Made by a program: the position numbers and the translations under genes. This document shows, piece after piece, positions 1,218-19,958 of a DNA stretch of 64,000 nt (positions are counted from its first letter, which is position 1; every line of letters begins with the position of its first letter). Origin of the DNA: Prochlorococcus sp. AG-402-G06 (GTDB taxonomy: Bacteria > Cyanobacteriota > Cyanobacteriia > PCC-6307 > Cyanobiaceae); NCBI GenBank assembly GCA_003277985.1, contig QCHR01000005.1, forward strand, positions 17,008 to 81,007. The letters run 5' to 3'. The notes beneath the pieces are model-generated. The model saw only the letters and a program-made list of their open reading frames with translations. It was not told the origin of the DNA and made no database searches.

Positions 1218-2744
1218 TTAAGGGTTAGTTAAATCATTCCATTTACTCTCAAGTTCATCACCCTCTTTCTCGTCACATTCTCCACCAAGCGAATCAACAA
1301 TTGTACATGTGTTGTGTACGGCTACTGAAACAGTATTCCCTTCTAGCATTAGACCATCAACAAAGATCTGATTTCTTGCAATAGGAGTGGAAGTTTGTCT
1401 GCTCAGGTTTTTCAATAGCTTGGAAGGAGGCTTTTGCTCAGCGAATAATACTTTCACGTTTTCTTCTTTCAGCTCAGCTATTACCGTTGAAATAGTCTCT
1501 GGTCTAAGGCTGGAAGAATCACCAACGTAATCTAATAGACTCAAAGTCTTCAAGCCAAATGCATCTCCGTAATATTCCATCGCTTTGTGCTTAGAAACGA
1601 TTGTCCTTCGATCAGTAGGAATTGTGGCAACTTGTTTTTGAGTCCATAAATCGAGATCTTCCAAAATAGAATTAACGGCTTGAGTCCTCTCTTTTAAAAC
1701 TTTTTTTGTTTCTCTGTCAAAGAAGGAAATTTTCTTATTGATATTTTTAGAAATGACATTTCCCATCTTGATAATGTTATGAGGGTCATGCCAGATATGA
1801 GGATCTAGCCCACCATGATCATGGTGATGATGGTGATCGCCTTCATCTGGGACTTGAGCAATCGGTTCAACATCGTCGCCTGAAATATCCTTAAAGAAAT
1901 GTTCGTCGGCTTCAAATTCAAAAGGCATATGCTCAGTAAAGAATGCATATTTACCAGCTTTTTTGATTTCTACAGTAAATGTTGTGATGTCTTTCTTCTC
2001 ATTAAATGAGAGAAGATATGCTTTTTCCTGCGCAACAAGTTTGTCATTATTGCGTTTAGTTTCTGAATTCTGAGACCCTAATAATTCTTTAGCAAGCTCT
2101 TCTGATGCTTCAATATCACCAGAGTTGAGAATAACCATTTTCATTGCAGGATCAGCATAGTCTCCATCGACTTTGGCAAAAGACCATTTGTATGTTCCTG
2201 CTGAAAGATCAAAAACACCAGCCCATTCAAAAGCTCCCTCTCCATGGGCATCGCCATGATCATCGTGGTCGTCATGATCGTCAGGCTTAGCAGCTGAATG
2301 ATCGTCATGATCATCGTGGTCATCATCCTTAGCAGCTGAATGATCATCGTGATCGTCATGATGATCGTCTATTTCTATTGCACTTACGCCTACAACAACA
2401 GTTAAAGGATTATCTAACCATTTTTTCATTGCAGGGGTCATCTCTGAACCAAGAGTAAATACTTGATTTGCACTTTTTAGTGTTTGAGCTTGCCTTGGAG
2501 TGATTTTGACATCATGAACATCTTGTTTTCTATCAATTAAGCAGGTTACAGGTGTTGAAGGTGGTGCAATCGCAGAAACGACATCGCAGACTAATGGCTC
2601 TACGGCAACAATGGGTTTTGAATTTGCCTGTGCACTCTGATTAATTCCAGAAAATAAAAATGCTCCAGCAACAAGAGAACTTTTGAGAACTGTTTTATTG
2701 ATTATGGGTTTAGCCTTTTTGGACTGATTAGAAAAATTCGACAT
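1218..2744 (-). CDS. znuA: Zinc ABC transporter substrate-binding protein ZnuA with large His-rich insertion
   Basis: A periplasmic solute-binding protein of the cluster A-1 zinc/manganese family. It has a signal peptide ending near SAQA (about residue 41), and the metal-binding fold is visible as QDVHDVKITP (His about 78), DPHIWHDPHN (about 315-324) and SKHKAMEYYGDAFGL. At about 508 residues it is some 170 longer than a normal ZnuA. The extra length is a His/Asp-rich stretch at about 127-168 containing DDHDDHSAAK twice, a module at about 171-281 (FEWAGVF to YAFFTEHMPFEFEA), and a second His run, DHHHHHDHGG. The track begins at a TTG; I prefer the ATG one codon in, at 2744. It is divergent from znuC across a Zur-box-like site. 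His-rich loops are known in ZnuA; the 110-residue module is unusual. Confidence 0.93.
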   Translation of the reverse strand: MSNFSNQSKKAKPIINKTVLKSSLVAGAFLFSGINQSAQANSKPIVAVEPLVCDVVSAIAPPSTPVTCLIDRKQDVHDVKITPRQAQTLKSANQVFTLGSEMTPAMKKWLDNPLTVVVGVSAIEIDDHHDDHDDHSAAKDDDHDDHDDHSAAKPDDHDDHDDHGDAHGEGAFEWAGVFDLSAGTYKWSFAKVDGDYADPAMKMVILNSGDIEASEELAKELLGSQNSETKRNNDKLVAQEKAYLLSFNEKKDITTFTVEIKKAGKYAFFTEHMPFEFEADEHFFKDISGDDVEPIAQVPDEGDHHHHHDHGGLDPHIWHDPHNIIKMGNVISKNINKKISFFDRETKKVLKERTQAVNSILEDLDLWTQKQVATIPTDRRTIVSKHKAMEYYGDAFGLKTLSLLDYVGDSSSLRPETISTVIAELKEENVKVLFAEQKPPSKLLKNLSRQTSTPIARNQIFVDGLMLEGNTVSVAVHNTCTIVDSLGGECDEKEGDELESKWNDLTNP

Positions 2745-2768
2745 CAAAAATATTAAGCGTATATAAAA

Positions 2769-2783
2769 CGATAATCATTTTCA
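2769..2783. promoter_or_regulatory. Probable Zur box in znuA/znuC divergent promoter
   Basis: CGATAATCATTTTCA matches the cyanobacterial Zur operator TGATAATNATTATCA (from memory) at all but two positions and is palindromic. It sits alone in the 89-bp spacer between the divergent znuA and znuC starts, where one bound Zur dimer could repress both. A zur gene is three genes away. I found no equally good match before the other genes of the island. Confidence 0.65.
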
Positions 2784-2833
2784 TTTGGTCTTGGCAAGTA
2801 TATTATGTTTCTTGTCAGCAAATCCTCTAATTG

Positions 2834-3529
2834 ATGTCTAGTTTGATTGCTGAAAATGTGACATATTCCTATTCGAGTAATATTAAACCTGCTTTAAGCA
2901 AGGTTTCTCTAAAGCTTGAGCAAGGTACTTTGACTGCTCTTGTTGGTCCGAATGGCGCTGGTAAGTCTACATTATTAAGCTTGCTGCAAGGTAGTAGCAA
3001 GCCGGATCAAGGAGAAATTACTGTTGATGGAAAACCATTGAGAAATAATCGATCTCAAGTGGCTTTAATGCCTCAGAGGGGAAAGCTGAATTGGAATTTT
3101 CCAATTACTGTTGAAGGATTAGTTTCTTTAGGTCGAGTCAATCATTCGAAATCGACTTGTTGTGAATTAGAGGCGGCTCTTCAACGTGTTGGAATATCTC
3201 ATTTAGCAAAAAGGCGACTTGATGCTTTATCTGGTGGTCAGCAACAAAGAGCATTACTCGCAAAAACCTTGATGAATCCTGCTAAAATTTTTCTACTTGA
3301 TGAACCGTGTTCCGCCTTTGATCCCCCTGCAAAAGAAGACTTCCTATTAATCATCCGTCAGTTAGCTGATTCGGGACTGACGGTTTTCGTTAGTAGTCAC
3401 GATTGGGGGACGTCCTTAAATGCTTATGACAAGGTTGTTGTTCTAGATAAGATTATTTTAGCTTCTGGCAACCCAGAAGAGGTTCAGGAAAAACTTAGTT
3501 CAATTAATTATCTAAGATGGAAAATATAG
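2834..3529 (+). CDS. znuC: Zinc ABC transporter ATP-binding protein
   Basis: A 231-residue ABC ATPase. It has Walker A GPNGAGKST at about residue 38, the ABC signature LSGGQQQRA at about 134, Walker B KIFLLDEP and the switch SSHDWG. It powers metal uptake by the ZnuABC importer at the inner membrane. The ORF track starts at a TTG one codon upstream; the ATG at 2834 is preferred. It is divergent from znuA, but its membrane partner znuB is not directly downstream: zur lies between them on the opposite strand. Confidence 0.93.
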   Translation: MSSLIAENVTYSYSSNIKPALSKVSLKLEQGTLTALVGPNGAGKSTLLSLLQGSSKPDQGEITVDGKPLRNNRSQVALMPQRGKLNWNFPITVEGLVSLGRVNHSKSTCCELEAALQRVGISHLAKRRLDALSGGQQQRALLAKTLMNPAKIFLLDEPCSAFDPPAKEDFLLIIRQLADSGLTVFVSSHDWGTSLNAYDKVVVLDKIILASGNPEEVQEKLSSINYLRWKI

Positions 3530-3555: not shown

Positions 3556-3957
3556 TCAAGCATTCAATTCTTGGGAACAATTTTGGCAGAGGCCAAAGTA
3601 TTCAAGAGTATGAAACAACAGCTCAAATTTTTTAGAGGCTTTTTTGGGTACGTGCATTGTTTTGACGGGGCATCCCTGCAATTGAGTGGTTTCTCCGCAG
3701 CTGACGCAAGTTAAATGATGAATATCTCTTTCAACTGGGGCATAAAGGACCTCGCCGTTCGGGAGGTGCCTCGAGCGTATCAAGCCTTGCTTTACTAACG
3801 CTTGCAAGTTTCTGTATACAGTCGTTAAACCCATTGCCTTTTCACCATTATGAAGTTTTCTATGCAGTTCTTGTCCACTCAACTCATCAGTACATTTTTT
3901 GAGTTCATTGAGAAGCTGTTGCTGTCTCTTAGTGATGTCAGGCTTGCTTGTATTCAT
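3556..3957 (-). CDS. zur: Fur-family zinc uptake regulator Zur
   Basis: About 133 residues, the normal length for the Fur family. It has an N-terminal winged helix with the recognition region GLTTVYRNLQALVKQGLI, then a dimerisation part with HHLTCVSCGETTQL and a C-terminal pair FGLCQNC. Two CxxC pairs form the structural zinc site. The family represses genes when metal-loaded. The location inside the znu genes, and the lack of iron genes nearby, favour Zur over Fur or PerR. An ATG at 3957 is more likely than the upstream TTG used by the track. It is convergent with znuC (26 bp) and divergent from znuB (52 bp), so it probably shares a control region with znuB. Confidence 0.88.
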   Translation of the reverse strand: MNTSKPDITKRQQQLLNELKKCTDELSGQELHRKLHNGEKAMGLTTVYRNLQALVKQGLIRSRHLPNGEVLYAPVERDIHHLTCVSCGETTQLQGCPVKTMHVPKKASKKFELLFHTLEYFGLCQNCSQELNA

Positions 3958-4009
3958 TAGCAAGATCTTAATTTGATCTCTTTACTGAACATACTGAATC
4001 ATTTGCTTA

Positions 4010-4795
4010 ATGTCTTTTATCAATACAAATTGGTGGATAATTCCTCTTCTGATAACTTCCTTTTCAGGAGTGCTTTGCCCTGCCATGGGGACTGTATTGA
4101 TAACTCATAAAAGGCTTCTTCAAGTCAATTTAATTTCACATTGTGTTTTGCCAGGACTTGCCTTGGCTATGGCGCTTGGGATTGACCCATCTATTGGAGG
4201 TGTCTTAAGCGGATTAGTGGGAGCTATTGCAGCAGAGAGTTTGACTAATAAGAAAAATCAAAATTATGAAGCTGTAATGAATACAATTCTTGCTGGTTCG
4301 ATGGGACTTGGAGTTTTGCTTATACCTTTACTTGGAATCAGGATTGATTTAGAGGCTGTTTTGTTTGGAGATTTATTAACTGCAAATTTGAGCGATTTAT
4401 TAAGAACTTTGATTGCGTTCTCGGCATTCATTTGCCTAATGCTTTTTGGGTACGACAAGCTTGTTCATATTGGTTTAGACCCAGAAGGAGCTGCCTCAAG
4501 TGGCGTTAATGTGTCTTTTTTAAATTTAGCTCTGGGATTTACCACTGCACTTGTCATTGTGAGCTCAATGTCAGCAGTCGGGGTCATCCTTGTGATTGCG
4601 TTACTCTCAACTCCAACTTTGTTGGGTTTACAGAAAGCTAGCTCTCTATGGGTTGCGATGGTTCGATCTTCCATATTTGGATTAGTTTTATCGATCATTG
4701 GTTTTTCTTTCGCTATGTTTATGAATTTGCCTCCAGGCCCACTTATTAGTGTTCTTTGTGTAATTTCATTGATCTTGCTTCCAAGGAATAATTAG
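4010..4795 (+). CDS. znuB: Zinc ABC transporter permease
   Basis: A 261-residue integral membrane protein of the ABC-3 family (ZnuB/MntB type) with about eight hydrophobic helices. Characteristic parts include the N-terminal ALMGTVLITHKR-like region (here AMGTVLITHKRL), SHCVLPGLALA and SAVGVILVIALLSTPTLLG. It forms the channel of the zinc importer with ZnuC and ZnuA. It is transcribed on the plus strand from the 52-bp region shared with divergent zur, so it must have its own promoter rather than depend on read-through from znuC. Confidence 0.93.
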   Translation: MSFINTNWWIIPLLITSFSGVLCPAMGTVLITHKRLLQVNLISHCVLPGLALAMALGIDPSIGGVLSGLVGAIAAESLTNKKNQNYEAVMNTILAGSMGLGVLLIPLLGIRIDLEAVLFGDLLTANLSDLLRTLIAFSAFICLMLFGYDKLVHIGLDPEGAASSGVNVSFLNLALGFTTALVIVSSMSAVGVILVIALLSTPTLLGLQKASSLWVAMVRSSIFGLVLSIIGFSFAMFMNLPPGPLISVLCVISLILLPRNN

Positions 4796-4955: not shown

Positions 4956-5573
4956 ATGAAGAGAACGCAACTTAATGTAAGTATTGATCCAAAACTTTTA
5001 GAAAAGATTAAAGAGAGTGCCAGGATTTCTGGCAAATCATTGGTTGGTTTTGTCTCTGATTGTTTTGTTAATCAAATAGAGAACCTTCCTGTTGAATCGA
5101 TAGATTCTAGATTTCAAAAAATTGAACAAAGGCTTCAATTAATTGAAAATAATCTTCAATTGCCAGCACTTAAAGCTCAAAGAACTCAACCTTTTACATC
5201 TCAAGAATTAGAAAATTTTAATGAATTTATCAAAGCTGTTTTTAGAAAAGAATTACAAAGAAAGGGATATAGATCAATGAAAGAGGCATGGAATGATTTT
5301 ATAAACCATATAAATTGTTTTGAACAATGGGATGAGACATGTTCTTTTAGACTTAAAGAGTCTCTTTTTATTGAACATGCTGATCCTTTAACAAGCGAAG
5401 AAATTAATCACCTCAAAGAAGGAGACGTATGTCCTCAACCAATACGAACAGGGATTATTAATTGGATCAACAATTCAGATAGAGGAGAATGTTGTTGCTC
5501 CGATAAAGAGTTCCCTTCACAGCAGCAAATTTGCGAAAAGGGTTCAATTTTAGTTGAAGAGATATATTCTTAG
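4956..5573 (+). CDS. Unknown protein with N-terminal ribbon-helix-helix-like segment
   Basis: A 205-residue protein I cannot name. Residues 1-40 (KRTQLNVSIDPKLLEKIKESARISGKSL) look like a ribbon-helix-helix DNA-binding unit: a short beta strand then two helices. Residues about 48-70 (RFQKIEQRLQLIENNL) look like a coiled coil. The middle is aromatic and charged, and the C-terminal part holds ECCCSDKEF, a possible metal or thiol site. It starts at ATG, and the 160-bp spacer upstream has no gene. It could be a local transcription factor for the metal island, but there is no direct evidence. Probably lineage-specific. Confidence 0.7.
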   Translation: MKRTQLNVSIDPKLLEKIKESARISGKSLVGFVSDCFVNQIENLPVESIDSRFQKIEQRLQLIENNLQLPALKAQRTQPFTSQELENFNEFIKAVFRKELQRKGYRSMKEAWNDFINHINCFEQWDETCSFRLKESLFIEHADPLTSEEINHLKEGDVCPQPIRTGIINWINNSDRGECCCSDKEFPSQQQICEKGSILVEEIYS

Positions 5574-5708: not shown

Positions 5709-6152
5709 TTAGTTAGGGTTGATATGGACTGCACAAGGCATCCATAATTTACCCATCTTATGGACACCATTGCATCCGAGCTTTTTGGCTTCGATCTCTG
5801 CCTGAGCTTTGGTTGGATATGCATATATATTTTTTGAAGACGAAGAATTAGAGCGATTGATTGACTCCTGTATAGCATTGTTTTCTGGACTCCATACCTT
5901 TAGACCCATGGTTGTTATTCCGGCAGAAAATATTCCCATTCCTACTATTGAGGCATTTATTACTCCCATGGCTACAGCACCAATAGAAACGACGCCCATG
6001 GGAACAATTCCAATGCTTACAATCCCCATGGGAACAATTCCAATGGAAATGAATCCAAGTGGTGCTATGCCAAATGCAATTTTTTTTGGTTTGCTTCCAC
6101 AATGCGAAGGCCCTTCGATATCTTTTTGATTTGTACTATTTTTGGTTGTCAT
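5709..6152 (-). CDS. DUF3721 protein with Gly/hydrophobic pentapeptide array
   Basis: 147 residues in three parts. Residues 1-27 are polar. Residues about 28-83 are a run of five-residue units with Gly leading (GIVPM, GIVSI, GVVSI), most regular at a ten-residue period. Residues about 112-140 form a DUF3721 domain ending GCNGVHKMGKLWMPC. The array has no long continuous transmembrane helix and may form a beta-solenoid or a membrane-associated sheet (inference). DUF3721 has no known function, but its conserved Cys, His and Met residues suggest metal binding. It lies 15 bp downstream of a second DUF3721 gene on the same strand, so the two are probably one operon. Confidence 0.75.
   Translation of the reverse strand: MTTKNSTNQKDIEGPSHCGSKPKKIAFGIAPLGFISIGIVPMGIVSIGIVPMGVVSIGAVAMGVINASIVGMGIFSAGITTMGLKVWSPENNAIQESINRSNSSSSKNIYAYPTKAQAEIEAKKLGCNGVHKMGKLWMPCAVHINPN
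5995..6045. repeat. 30-bp tandem repeat inside the pentapeptide-array gene
   Basis: The 21-bp stretch CCCATGGGAACAATTCCAAT(G) occurs at 5995-6015 and again at 6025-6045, a 30-bp period that encodes one ten-residue unit. Flanking sequence continues the pattern with more divergence. This indicates recent internal duplication within the array. Confidence 0.7.
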
Positions 6153-6167
6153 TTATTGTTCGAAAAT

Positions 6168-6425
6168 TTAGTGATGATGGTGATGTTCACTTTTGGACTT
6201 GTTATGTTCATTCTCCTCATGAGCAGAATGACTTTTACAAGGCATCCATTTGTCACCCATTTTATGAGCTCCAGTGCAATTGAAATCCTTGGCTGCTTTT
6301 TCGGCTTCTATTTTTGTCTCAAAAAGAGAGGGAGTACCTTTTGTTTGAGAATTATCTGAACATCCTATTAGTGAAAATGATATTGAAAGAATAATTGTAG
6401 AGAGAATAGGCTTGAATTTGTTCAT
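6168..6425 (-). CDS. Small DUF3721 lipoprotein with C-terminal His tail
   Basis: 85 residues. A signal sequence of about 20 residues ends in a lipobox, SLIGC, with the lipidated Cys at 22, so the product is probably membrane-anchored outside the cytoplasm. Residues about 35-63 form a DUF3721 domain (FETKIEAEKAAKDFNCTGAH, then KMGDKWMPC). The tail HSAHEENEHNKSKSEHHHHH is strongly His-rich. The domain plus tail strongly suggests binding of zinc or another transition metal (inference). It is followed by a second DUF3721 gene, and a porin gene diverges from it across 293 bp. Confidence 0.78.
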   Translation of the reverse strand: MNKFKPILSTIILSISFSLIGCSDNSQTKGTPSLFETKIEAEKAAKDFNCTGAHKMGDKWMPCKSHSAHEENEHNKSKSEHHHHH

Positions 6426-6718
6426 TTATCTATTAGGGCTAGTAAACCTAGTCTGTAGACTAATTCAGCCTAGAGCTTTGTCATTGAATATTTCAAATAA
6501 TCTAGAACAGATAAGTAATTAAATAATCCAACTATTTTTTATCTTTTCTTTTTGAGACTAGATGTTATGGAAATTGGTTCTGAGATTTTTTCCTGACAAA
6601 GGCAAAAAACACGACTTTTGTATCTAAAAGCACATATTCTAGGCCTTTGACAAGCCTGAGAAGCTAAGTTCGTGAGATATGAATAGTTTTACTAGTTTTA
6701 CTAGTCTAAATAAGATCT
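6426..6718. promoter_or_regulatory. Divergent control region between DUF3721 lipoprotein and porin genes
   Basis: 293 bp with no convincing gene. It must hold promoters for both flanking genes. Just before the porin ATG two tandem copies of TTTTACTAG lie at 6687-6704, a possible protein-binding site or spacer. A short palindrome, TTGAATATTTCAA, lies near 6485-6497. Neither matches a Zur box well. Confidence 0.4.
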
Positions 6719-7918
6719 ATGAGGCTCTTTGCTCAATTAATCTCAATCCATGCTGTCTTAGGTTTCATGACTCCAATTGCTGTCCAAGCAGGAGGTGAAA
6801 AGCACATAGGTCATCATGATCACCATGGTAGTCATATGAATATGGGAGATTCATACCCCTCAACTATGTTTATGGGTAAAACGACTTTTGTTTTGGGTGG
6901 AGTAGATGGCGTGAGCGATTCTGGAATGGGTGGAATGGGTGGAATGGGTGGAATGGGTGGAATGCCTACTGCTGACGAAAAGGATGGAACGGTTTTTCAT
7001 TACGATACGAAGTTAATGTTTATGACCAGTTTTACAGGTCAAGACATGCTTAAAACTGCTGTTCGCATTGGCAACTTTGGCATGATGGAACCCTTTGGAA
7101 TGATGGGTGAGGCAAGATTAGATACTGCTTTCAGTAGTAGTGATTCGTTAGAACTTCATAAGGCTTATTATCAGTTCCCTGTTGGAGATGATATTCAAGT
7201 AACTTTTGGGCCCAAGCTCCGCCAAGATGATTTGCTTGGAGTTTGGCCTAGTGCTTACCCAAGCGATGGAGTTTTGTTTGTCTTGAATCAGGCAGGTGCG
7301 AATGATACTTATTCCAAGAAGATGGGTGCGGGCGCTGGAATTACTTGGTCCTATGAAAAATTAGTTGCCTCTGCACTTTTCGTTTCAGAAGACGCGTCAA
7401 ATTCTTCGATTGGCTTCTTAGATGATGAAGGCAAAGACCACACAACCGCTCAATTGGCATGGGTTGACGAGAAATATACGCTAGCAGCTGCATACACACA
7501 GGCTGATAACGGGAATACTGATAACTCTCCTGATATTAACGACTACTCTTCTTTTGGTATTAGTGGTAGCTATCAATTTGGAGACGACTACAGCTTGAGT
7601 GCAGGAATGGGATGGAAAAATCCTGATAACGAGGATAGTCCCGATACTTCAATGAATAAGGTGGAGCATGGCAAGACATGGTCTGTTGGATTCTTGTGGA
7701 ATAATGCGTTGATTGAAGGTAATAAGTTTGGTTTTGTTATTGGAACAGCCGAAACTCATAGAGATGATAGTGGTTATGACGATCCTTTAGCTTGGGAAGC
7801 TTTTTACGATTTTAAAGTGAACGATAGTGTCACAGTCACCCCAGCTATCTTTGTTATCGAGAAAGATGGTAAAGAGGAAGTAAATGGGGCTTTGGTGAAA
7901 ACCACTTTTAATTTCTAG
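6719..7918 (+). CDS. Cyanobacterial outer-membrane porin with His/Met-rich N-terminus
   Basis: 399 residues. It has an N-terminal signal peptide ending near AVQA, then KHIGHHDHHGSHMNMG, then a GMG repeat, then a series of alternating-residue beta strands with aromatic and Gly/Asp-rich loops, ending in a C-terminal Phe (KTTFNF), the usual outer-membrane beta-barrel signal. It resembles the OprB-like/iron-uptake porin group of cyanobacteria but lacks the usual N-terminal SLH domain that anchors larger members to peptidoglycan. The His/Met-rich start and the zinc-gene neighbourhood suggest a metal-related channel, but substrate and regulation are not shown by the sequence. The ATG follows a tandem TTTTACTAG repeat. 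Confidence 0.75.
   Translation: MRLFAQLISIHAVLGFMTPIAVQAGGEKHIGHHDHHGSHMNMGDSYPSTMFMGKTTFVLGGVDGVSDSGMGGMGGMGGMGGMPTADEKDGTVFHYDTKLMFMTSFTGQDMLKTAVRIGNFGMMEPFGMMGEARLDTAFSSSDSLELHKAYYQFPVGDDIQVTFGPKLRQDDLLGVWPSAYPSDGVLFVLNQAGANDTYSKKMGAGAGITWSYEKLVASALFVSEDASNSSIGFLDDEGKDHTTAQLAWVDEKYTLAAAYTQADNGNTDNSPDINDYSSFGISGSYQFGDDYSLSAGMGWKNPDNEDSPDTSMNKVEHGKTWSVGFLWNNALIEGNKFGFVIGTAETHRDDSGYDDPLAWEAFYDFKVNDSVTVTPAIFVIEKDGKEEVNGALVKTTFNF
6923..6964. repeat. 9-bp tandem repeat encoding Gly-Met-Gly units
   Basis: GGAATGGGT is repeated four times exactly (6923-6958), followed by a degenerate partial copy. It encodes the GMGGMGGMGGMG stretch near the porin N-terminus. Exact copies imply recent slippage; copy number probably varies between strains. 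Confidence 0.85.
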
Positions 7919-19136: not shown

Positions 19137-19958
19137 TTGCAGCTGAGCGAATCCAAAAATTCAATAATTGATAGTCATTGTCATATTGTTTTCTCTAACT
19201 TTAATGAAGATAGAGAAAAAGTTGCTGCAAGGTGGAGAGCACAAGGTGTAAAAGCTTTATTACACGCTTGTGTCGAACCCTCTGAAATTCCTGCTATTAA
19301 ATCAATGGCTGATCAATTTCAGGAGATGAGGTATTCAGTTGGAGTTCATCCATTGGATGTTCATCATTGGGGACCTGACACTGTAAATGTTTTAAAAAAT
19401 GCAGCTCTGGATGACAATCGAGTCGTTGCAATAGGGGAATTAGGCCTTGATCTTTTTAAAGCAGAGAACTTGAGTGAGCAGCTTTCAATTCTAATGCCTC
19501 AATTACACTTGGCTTTTGAATTGAATTTACCTGTCATTGTTCATTGTCGAGATGCCGCAAAAGAAATGTTAGAAGTTTTTTCTAAGCTTTCTGAAGCTGG
19601 TAGATGCCCAAAAGGTGTTATGCATTGTTGGAGCGGCAATGTTAAAGAGATGAGAGGGTTCCTTGATCTTGGCTTTTTCATAAGCTTCAGTGGCAATGTG
19701 ACTTTCAAAAACGCTATTGATATCCATGAATGCGCCAAAGAAGTTCCTCACACTAGATTTCTTGTAGAGACTGATAGCCCTTTTCTTTCTCCCGTTCCAC
19801 ATAGAGGGAAAAGAAATGAGCCTTCTTTCGTAAAGCATGTAGTAGATAAAATTTCGGATATTAGAGGTGAAAGCTTTTCTGAAATTGCTCAAAAAAACAA
19901 CTCAAAATGCAAGAGAATTGTTTGCGTTGCCTTAAATATCACCATTGCCTCTAGTTAA
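19137..19958 (+). CDS. tatD: TatD family metal-dependent deoxyribonuclease (apparent frameshift at 3' end)
   Basis: 273 residues from a TTG start. TIM-barrel hydrolase motifs are DSHCHIVF (metal His pair), GELGLDLF, VIVHCRDA, MHCWSGN and LVETDSPFLSP. After EIAQK the reading frame changes: removing one A from the A7 run at 19891-19897 restores TTQNARELFALP and a stop at 19935, the usual TatD ending (NAR-LF). As written, the last 20 or so residues are out of frame. This is probably a sequencing error, because rpoB next door shows the same kind of defect. TatD proteins act as DNA nucleases or quality-control enzymes. Confidence 0.9.
   Translation: MQLSESKNSIIDSHCHIVFSNFNEDREKVAARWRAQGVKALLHACVEPSEIPAIKSMADQFQEMRYSVGVHPLDVHHWGPDTVNVLKNAALDDNRVVAIGELGLDLFKAENLSEQLSILMPQLHLAFELNLPVIVHCRDAAKEMLEVFSKLSEAGRCPKGVMHCWSGNVKEMRGFLDLGFFISFSGNVTFKNAIDIHECAKEVPHTRFLVETDSPFLSPVPHRGKRNEPSFVKHVVDKISDIRGESFSEIAQKNNSKCKRIVCVALNITIASS

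Follow-up and report, generated by a model that had tools for sequence, protein, structure and literature searches.

The stretch of DNA analysed here (the window; 64,000 nt from Prochlorococcus sp. AG-402-G06, contig QCHR01000005.1) carries two short neighbouring genes close to a zinc-uptake locus, and the question it raises is what this pair does. Prochlorococcus and Synechococcus live at extremely low trace-metal levels, and the holding of metals in their envelope is poorly known. A first-pass annotation of the window had proposed that the pair is a small device for metal capture or storage. The two open reading frames that it described are present and adjacent, at 5709-6152 (protein A, 147 aa) and 6168-6425 (protein B, 85 aa), both on the minus strand and separated by a 15-nt gap. 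The reading favoured here, at a probability of about 0.5, is that B and A may form a two-gene envelope metal-binding module of the Cyanobiaceae for Zn(II) capture or buffering, repressed together with a porin by a ribbon-helix-helix (RHH) protein in the window's lineage.

Both proteins carry a full DUF3721 domain (Pfam PF12518), as had been reported, with scores far over the cut-off of 27 bits: 63.7 bits (E 1.3e-17) in A, at residues 112-143 (5724..5819, minus strand), and 69.2 bits (E 2.4e-19) in B, at residues 35-67 (6225..6323, minus strand). The family has no assigned function; its metal-site reading, four-ligand motif and paired architecture are new from this analysis. The motif conserved in A and B is CxG[VA]HxMGxxWMPCxxH, with four candidate ligands (C/H/C/H); the shorter version described earlier, C-x-G-x-H-KMG-x-x-WMPC, does occur in both proteins but stops too early and misses the final His, three residues past the last Cys (H+3). 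The candidate ligands are C127, H131, M133, C140 and H143 in A, and C50, H54, M56, C63 and H66 in B. C1, H5 and C14 are invariant in 97/97 distinct A motifs and 59/59 distinct B motifs, H+3 is kept in 96/97 and 58/59, respectively, and the Met within CxGxHxMG is found in all of them. In a third, PepSY-linked DUF3721 subfamily Glu, another usual metal ligand, stands at the H+3 position in 16/16, and Asn takes the place of the Met. His5 is absent from two diverged copies at one locus (L187). The AlphaFold2 model of the domain is a helix followed by a beta-hairpin (pLDDT about 85-90 overall and 85-88 for the domain of A), and no significant PDB relative was found by sequence or fold.

In B a hydrophobic N-terminal segment is followed by the lipobox LIGC at residues 19-22 (Cys22), which marks it as a lipoprotein by a call made by eye from sequence and alignment, not by a signal-peptide program. 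An HHHHH tail ends the protein (6171..6185, minus strand). Both features are specific to lineages: the lipobox is of Prochlorococcus type, and in the alignment Cyanobium-type B proteins have no lipobox, an apparent cleavable signal and a weak tail. The earlier statement that one motif sits on two different carriers is thus correct for the window, where the lipobox and His tail of B stand beside a Gly-led array in A, but for B it extends to certain lineages only.

Protein A begins with an N-terminal HCGSKPKK segment and continues into the array (residues 28-83; 5904..6071, minus strand), with DUF3721 at its C-terminus. The array consists of 11 Gly-led pentads, such that every fifth residue is Gly over 56 residues with no charged residue among them; its 9 Gly pairs at a spacing of five were reached by 0 of 20000 shuffles. 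It is a 5-residue repeat by form, classed under GLTT by its profile match (PF01744, 63.8 bits, E 1e-17, cut-off 21). The name 'pentapeptide array' given to it earlier therefore has to be dropped: the best match to a standard pentapeptide repeat of the Pentapeptide_2 or A(D/N)LXX type, PF01469, was not significant (E 0.14, 12.5 bits against a cut-off of 26.4). The mean Kyte-Doolittle value of the array, approximately 2.2 over 19 residues, is typical of membrane segments, whereas a Hessa-type sum is unfavourable owing to Gly, Pro and Ser. Membrane embedding is accordingly likely, short of certain. In the AlphaFold2 model the array has a pLDDT of about 42 and its fold is unresolved.

A search for DUF3721 pairs elsewhere, and for their neighbours, was suggested with the original description. 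DUF3721 is present in 132 of the 151 Cyanobiaceae genomes sampled, mostly in two or more copies, and the pairs listed lie approximately 0.4-0.5 kb apart; the window's genome has these two copies only. DUF3721 was found in 36 of 292 genomes sampled across the phylum, all of them Cyanobiaceae and none from another cyanobacterial family, and 14 control genomes were negative as well. A comparison of 80 loci and 40 further stretches showed that the order B then A on one strand is shared by Prochlorococcus, Synechococcus and Cyanobium relatives, and recurrent metal-gene neighbours are described below. No copies of B were found in the phage collection. The B-A pair is real and conserved across the Cyanobiaceae. 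DUF3721 and PF12518 are unnamed in the open-access literature searched, which fits the claim that the pair is undescribed.

The chief advance past the first-pass annotation is an array carrier with an exchangeable ligand-rich tail across cyanobacteria. Homologues of the array are present in other cyanobacterial families, without DUF3721. In 20 genomes outside the Cyanobiaceae, several of them related, the array homologue has at least two His in its last 16 residues in 19/20 cases and at least three in 15/20; among 464 other ORFs of the same loci these frequencies are 4.7% and 0.6%, respectively. Some homologues also carry His inside the pentads (GISPHG, GIAAHG). Since homologues without DUF3721 end His-rich, the A-type array appears to carry exchangeable metal-type tails, and a linkage of GLTT arrays to a C-terminal ligand-rich tail, whether His-rich or DUF3721, was not found described. 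Within the Cyanobiaceae the His cluster is on the linker of A in Synechococcus/Cyanobium-type genomes and on the tail of B in Prochlorococcus. The correlation between linker His and tail His (rho -0.21, p 0.05; linker counts too low for L117 and L118) is a weak statistic, as it is essentially one clade-level switch.

Divergent from the pair lies a SomB-like porin gene (6719..7918, plus strand), which scores 97.9 bits against NF033921 (SomB-type iron uptake porin; cut-off 100) over profile positions 137-485 only. The N-terminus of the porin combines a GMG run with a segment rich in His and Met. On the other side, converging with the pair, is a gene for an RHH-type regulator (4956..5573, plus strand). 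This protein has sub-threshold matches to PF19891, PF01402 and NF041551 and an MKRxQLNxxID start that is conserved in homologues; no curated Pfam or NCBIfam domain was found over cut-off. A CPxPIRTGxINW segment is conserved at its C-terminus. The C-terminal CxCS motif is conserved in all homologues shown but the most divergent, and would fit a role in sensing metals or thiols, for which the protein is a candidate; the L172 homologue lacks CxCS, though its genome has the ACTAG operator. NikR is an RHH metal sensor. The protein resembles sensors of that type in its putative RHH-type N-terminus, in a candidate tandem-site operator and in possible C-terminal metal ligands, and differs from them in its CxCS region and in having no NikR or ACT-type ligand domain match in Pfam or NCBIfam.

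The candidate operators are tandem ACTAG-N4 repeats with a 9-bp period, which precede both start codons in the 293 bp that separate B from the porin gene, just upstream of B (6431..6452, minus strand) and of the porin gene (6682..6712, plus strand), and are kept in relatives. Three of the seven ACTAG-N5-CTAG matches in the window's genome fall in this interval, and the other repeat matches examined in that genome are mostly intragenic. Among 114 loci, the exact repeat lies upstream of the pair in 34/36 whose stretch includes a homologue of the RHH or porin gene, and in 1/78 that have neither; the Fisher p-values of such counts were set aside as stand-alone evidence, related loci not being independent. 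The sole exception, L057, belongs to a genome with an RHH gene on another contig, and L098, counted through its porin, has elsewhere only a divergent RHH homologue (34%). A whole-genome RHH search agrees with this co-occurrence, and on the tree of A RHH and operator agree on average in 1.8 of only 2 well-supported independent contrasts. The strict triple repeat stands upstream of the pair in the window's genome and in 5/6 further genomes with RHH read beside the pair (G056, G086, G110, G146 and G117), the sixth, G052, having a doublet; it also occurs there in G017 and G130, where the presence of RHH is unchecked, and in 0/5 genomes without RHH in the stretch read. Elsewhere in the genomes strict tandem repeats occur at about chance frequency. 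We infer from these sequence patterns that the RHH protein may bind the ACTAG repeats and repress the pair and the porin. The genome of L068 contains a decayed RHH remnant with two in-frame stops (G422:C14:12890-13102) and a pair without operator. A 14-bp palindrome, TAGTCTGTAGACTA, at 6449-6462 was rejected as an operator, since relatives keep the ACTAG repeats but not this palindrome. A sigma-70 scan gave no promoter for B, and a -35/-10 reading of ATGACA/TAATCT in relatives was made by eye only.

The zinc genes lie beyond the RHH gene. They comprise znuA with a His/Asp-rich insert (1218..2747, minus strand), the znuC ATPase gene (2831..3529, plus strand), a gene for a Fur-family regulator, probably Zur by profile matches (3556..3963, minus strand), and a znuB-type ABC-3 permease gene (4010..4795, plus strand); the znu assignments are from Pfam. 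In a box scan, a palindrome resembling the Zur box lies at 2769..2783, between znuA and znuC. The znuA insert is unusually long, with repeated DDHDDH units. This layout matches the zinc-uptake locus described for Synechococcus WH8102, where the SynZur regulon includes znuABC and bmtA (PMC9337993). Unlike that regulon, the pair points towards the znu side in convergent orientation, with a candidate operator and a candidate regulator of its own. It also has no Zur box: no site within 5 mismatches of TGATAATNATTATCA was found between 6426 and 6718, and on this ground control by Zur was rejected for the pair. Since the pair converges with the RHH gene, pair and znu genes are not one transcript. 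Of the earlier claim that the pair is cotranscribed next to zinc genes, the neighbourhood thus survives, one gene away, and the common transcript does not.

In the window's clade the gene order is fixed as infB, folE, porin, pair, RHH, znuB, Zur, znuC, znuA. The link to zinc by position is weaker than the first-pass annotation suggested: the order is fixed in that clade only, no Zur box lies at the pair, and the porin and RHH genes are its closer conserved partners. Outside the near clade at least two znu/zur genes occur in the stretch read at 7/81 loci, in varied arrangements, against 0.7 expected for random positions when the relatedness of loci is ignored. Zinc synteny as a general rule was rejected, as it holds in the near clade only, although proximity recurs in these 7/81 loci; in most genomes no recognised metal gene was found within the few kb read around the pair.

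Single DUF3721 genes and one array gene widen the picture. In one Synechococcus genus a single DUF3721 gene lies in the order SBP-ATPase-ABC3-DUF3721-ArsP_1-DUF1980, beside znuC-znuB-Zur box-znuA. At L174:88-9156 this cluster is seen with a second ABC metal system, DUF3721, an ArsP_1 permease, DUF1980 and znuC-znuB-Zur box-znuA all on the same strand. At L184:5741-6325, adjoining the DUF3721 gene of the zinc cluster, a possible zinc-sparing gene has a sub-threshold match to NF047901, metal-independent carbonic anhydrase (170 bits, cut-off 350). Another single type occurs with a PepSY_TM-like 90-aa gene, to which some genomes add DUF305 and a MerR regulator; at L177:4922-5439 and about ten similar loci the DUF3721 gene overlaps or touches this membrane gene, in a recurrent marine Synechococcus unit. 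The MerR protein beside the solo DUF3721 reads GICTCSDLK, with a Cys at the position of ZntR Cys79 when aligned by eye. At the CueR Ser77 position, the choice of Cys or Ser is said to set +2/+1 metal selectivity, with Cys for divalent metals (PMC9909328); by this rule the MerR protein points to a divalent metal, and it lacks the Ser expected of a copper-type (CueR) regulator. Outside the Cyanobiaceae one array gene adjoins a cytochrome c gene, DUF1775 and CopC/CopD. At this locus (L290:1886-4885) the cytochrome c gene, the His-tailed array gene, DUF1775 and a CopC/CopD fusion stand in a row on one strand, possibly a copper operon that includes the array carrier. With zinc-type, MerR/DUF305-type and copper-type contexts, the metal link of DUF3721 and the array is broad.

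In the arrangement that we infer, which covers metal binding, the identity of the metal, the way A sits in the membrane, the repressor role of the RHH protein and the direction of metal flow, C-x3-H-x8-C-x2-H of the DUF3721 helix and beta-hairpin, approximately 33 residues, would form a metal site. B would hold it in the periplasm, lipid-anchored in some lineages and secreted in soluble form in others, and its His tail would add a further surface for binding. A would display it on a hydrophobic Gly-pentad carrier, probably membrane-embedded, which in other cyanobacteria would bear a His tail instead. Together the two proteins would capture or buffer a d-block metal by binding it, Zn(II) being the likeliest, at a stage between the porin of the outer membrane and metal uptake through systems like ZnuABC. 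The RHH protein of the window's lineage would probably repress the pair and the divergent porin through the ACTAG-N4 tandem repeats. The original proposal of a metal capture or storage device is partly supported: beyond the motif itself it gains from the C/H/C/H conservation, the His-tailed homologues of the array carrier, the recurrent metal neighbours and the conserved pairing, and such a device may serve capture or storage, of zinc or of copper. A wider reading is offered only tentatively: that these are undescribed cyanobacterial Gly-pentad membrane carriers with an exchangeable metal tail, most families using a His tail and the Cyanobiaceae a DUF3721 C/H/C/H knuckle, which they also place on a partner periplasmic lipoprotein, and that in part of Prochlorococcus the pair and the His/Met-rich porin may form the regulon of a new Cys-containing RHH metal sensor acting on ACTAG-N4 tandem operators.

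On the sequence comparisons zinc is favoured as the metal of the pair, with copper possible. The same architecture could serve as a periplasmic and membrane copper buffer or detoxification pair, with the porin as its outer-membrane partner, and although this is rather unlikely it would suit the constant Met of the A and B motifs, the His/Met-rich porin N-terminus, the array gene beside CopC/CopD, and the DUF305 genes that adjoin some DUF3721 genes. CopM, a DUF305 protein from Synechocystis to which such a pair would be comparable in role, binds copper and is proposed to sequester metal outside the cytoplasm (PMC4335983). CopM is, like A and B, small, exported and cyanobacterial; the pair, with a putative metal role, has no DUF305, other ligands and other anchors. 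The divalent-type Cys of the MerR protein, the Asn in place of Met in the PepSY-linked subfamily and the two unrelated gene orders that tie DUF3721 to znu/Zur clusters all argue against copper.

The paired Cys conserved in a secreted domain could form a disulfide, and DUF3721 may then be a stabilised mini-domain for protein-protein or envelope attachment, any metal binding being absent or incidental. The two Cys and WxPC are indeed its most constant part, with His5 and H+3 varying in diverged copies, and the model has a weak, non-significant likeness to Cys-stabilised folds such as defensins (best E 1.3). However, the His of A and B match the Cys in constancy, DUF3721 is accompanied or replaced by His-rich tails, and metal genes repeatedly adjoin it; moreover, if the array of A crossed the membrane an even number of times as a hairpin and kept its Lys-rich end inside the cell, the DUF3721 of A would face the reducing cytoplasm. 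This alternative is considered improbable, and still less probable is that two ordinary conserved genes for stress or the envelope ended up near znu by historical accident and share repeats left over from an ancestor. Unrelated neighbours at most loci outside the near clade, and strict tandem repeats at about chance frequency elsewhere, are what such an accident would give, yet the strict triple repeat stands exactly upstream of the pair in the window's genome and in 5/6 others with RHH read beside it, against 0/5 without RHH in the stretch read, and neighbourhood cannot account for the His-tail enrichment of the array carriers. For the metal-binding module, its presence in most of a small-genome family, its four-ligand motif, exchangeable tail and candidate dedicated regulator give an unannotated family a concrete and cheaply testable role.

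Two minor observations were also made. Tail-less, array-only proteins adjoin the DUF3721 pair at L144:6613-6810 and L239:1393-1647. Away from the znu locus, at 19169-19183, the window contains a second Zur-box-like palindrome, TGATAGTCATTGTCA, with 2 mismatches.
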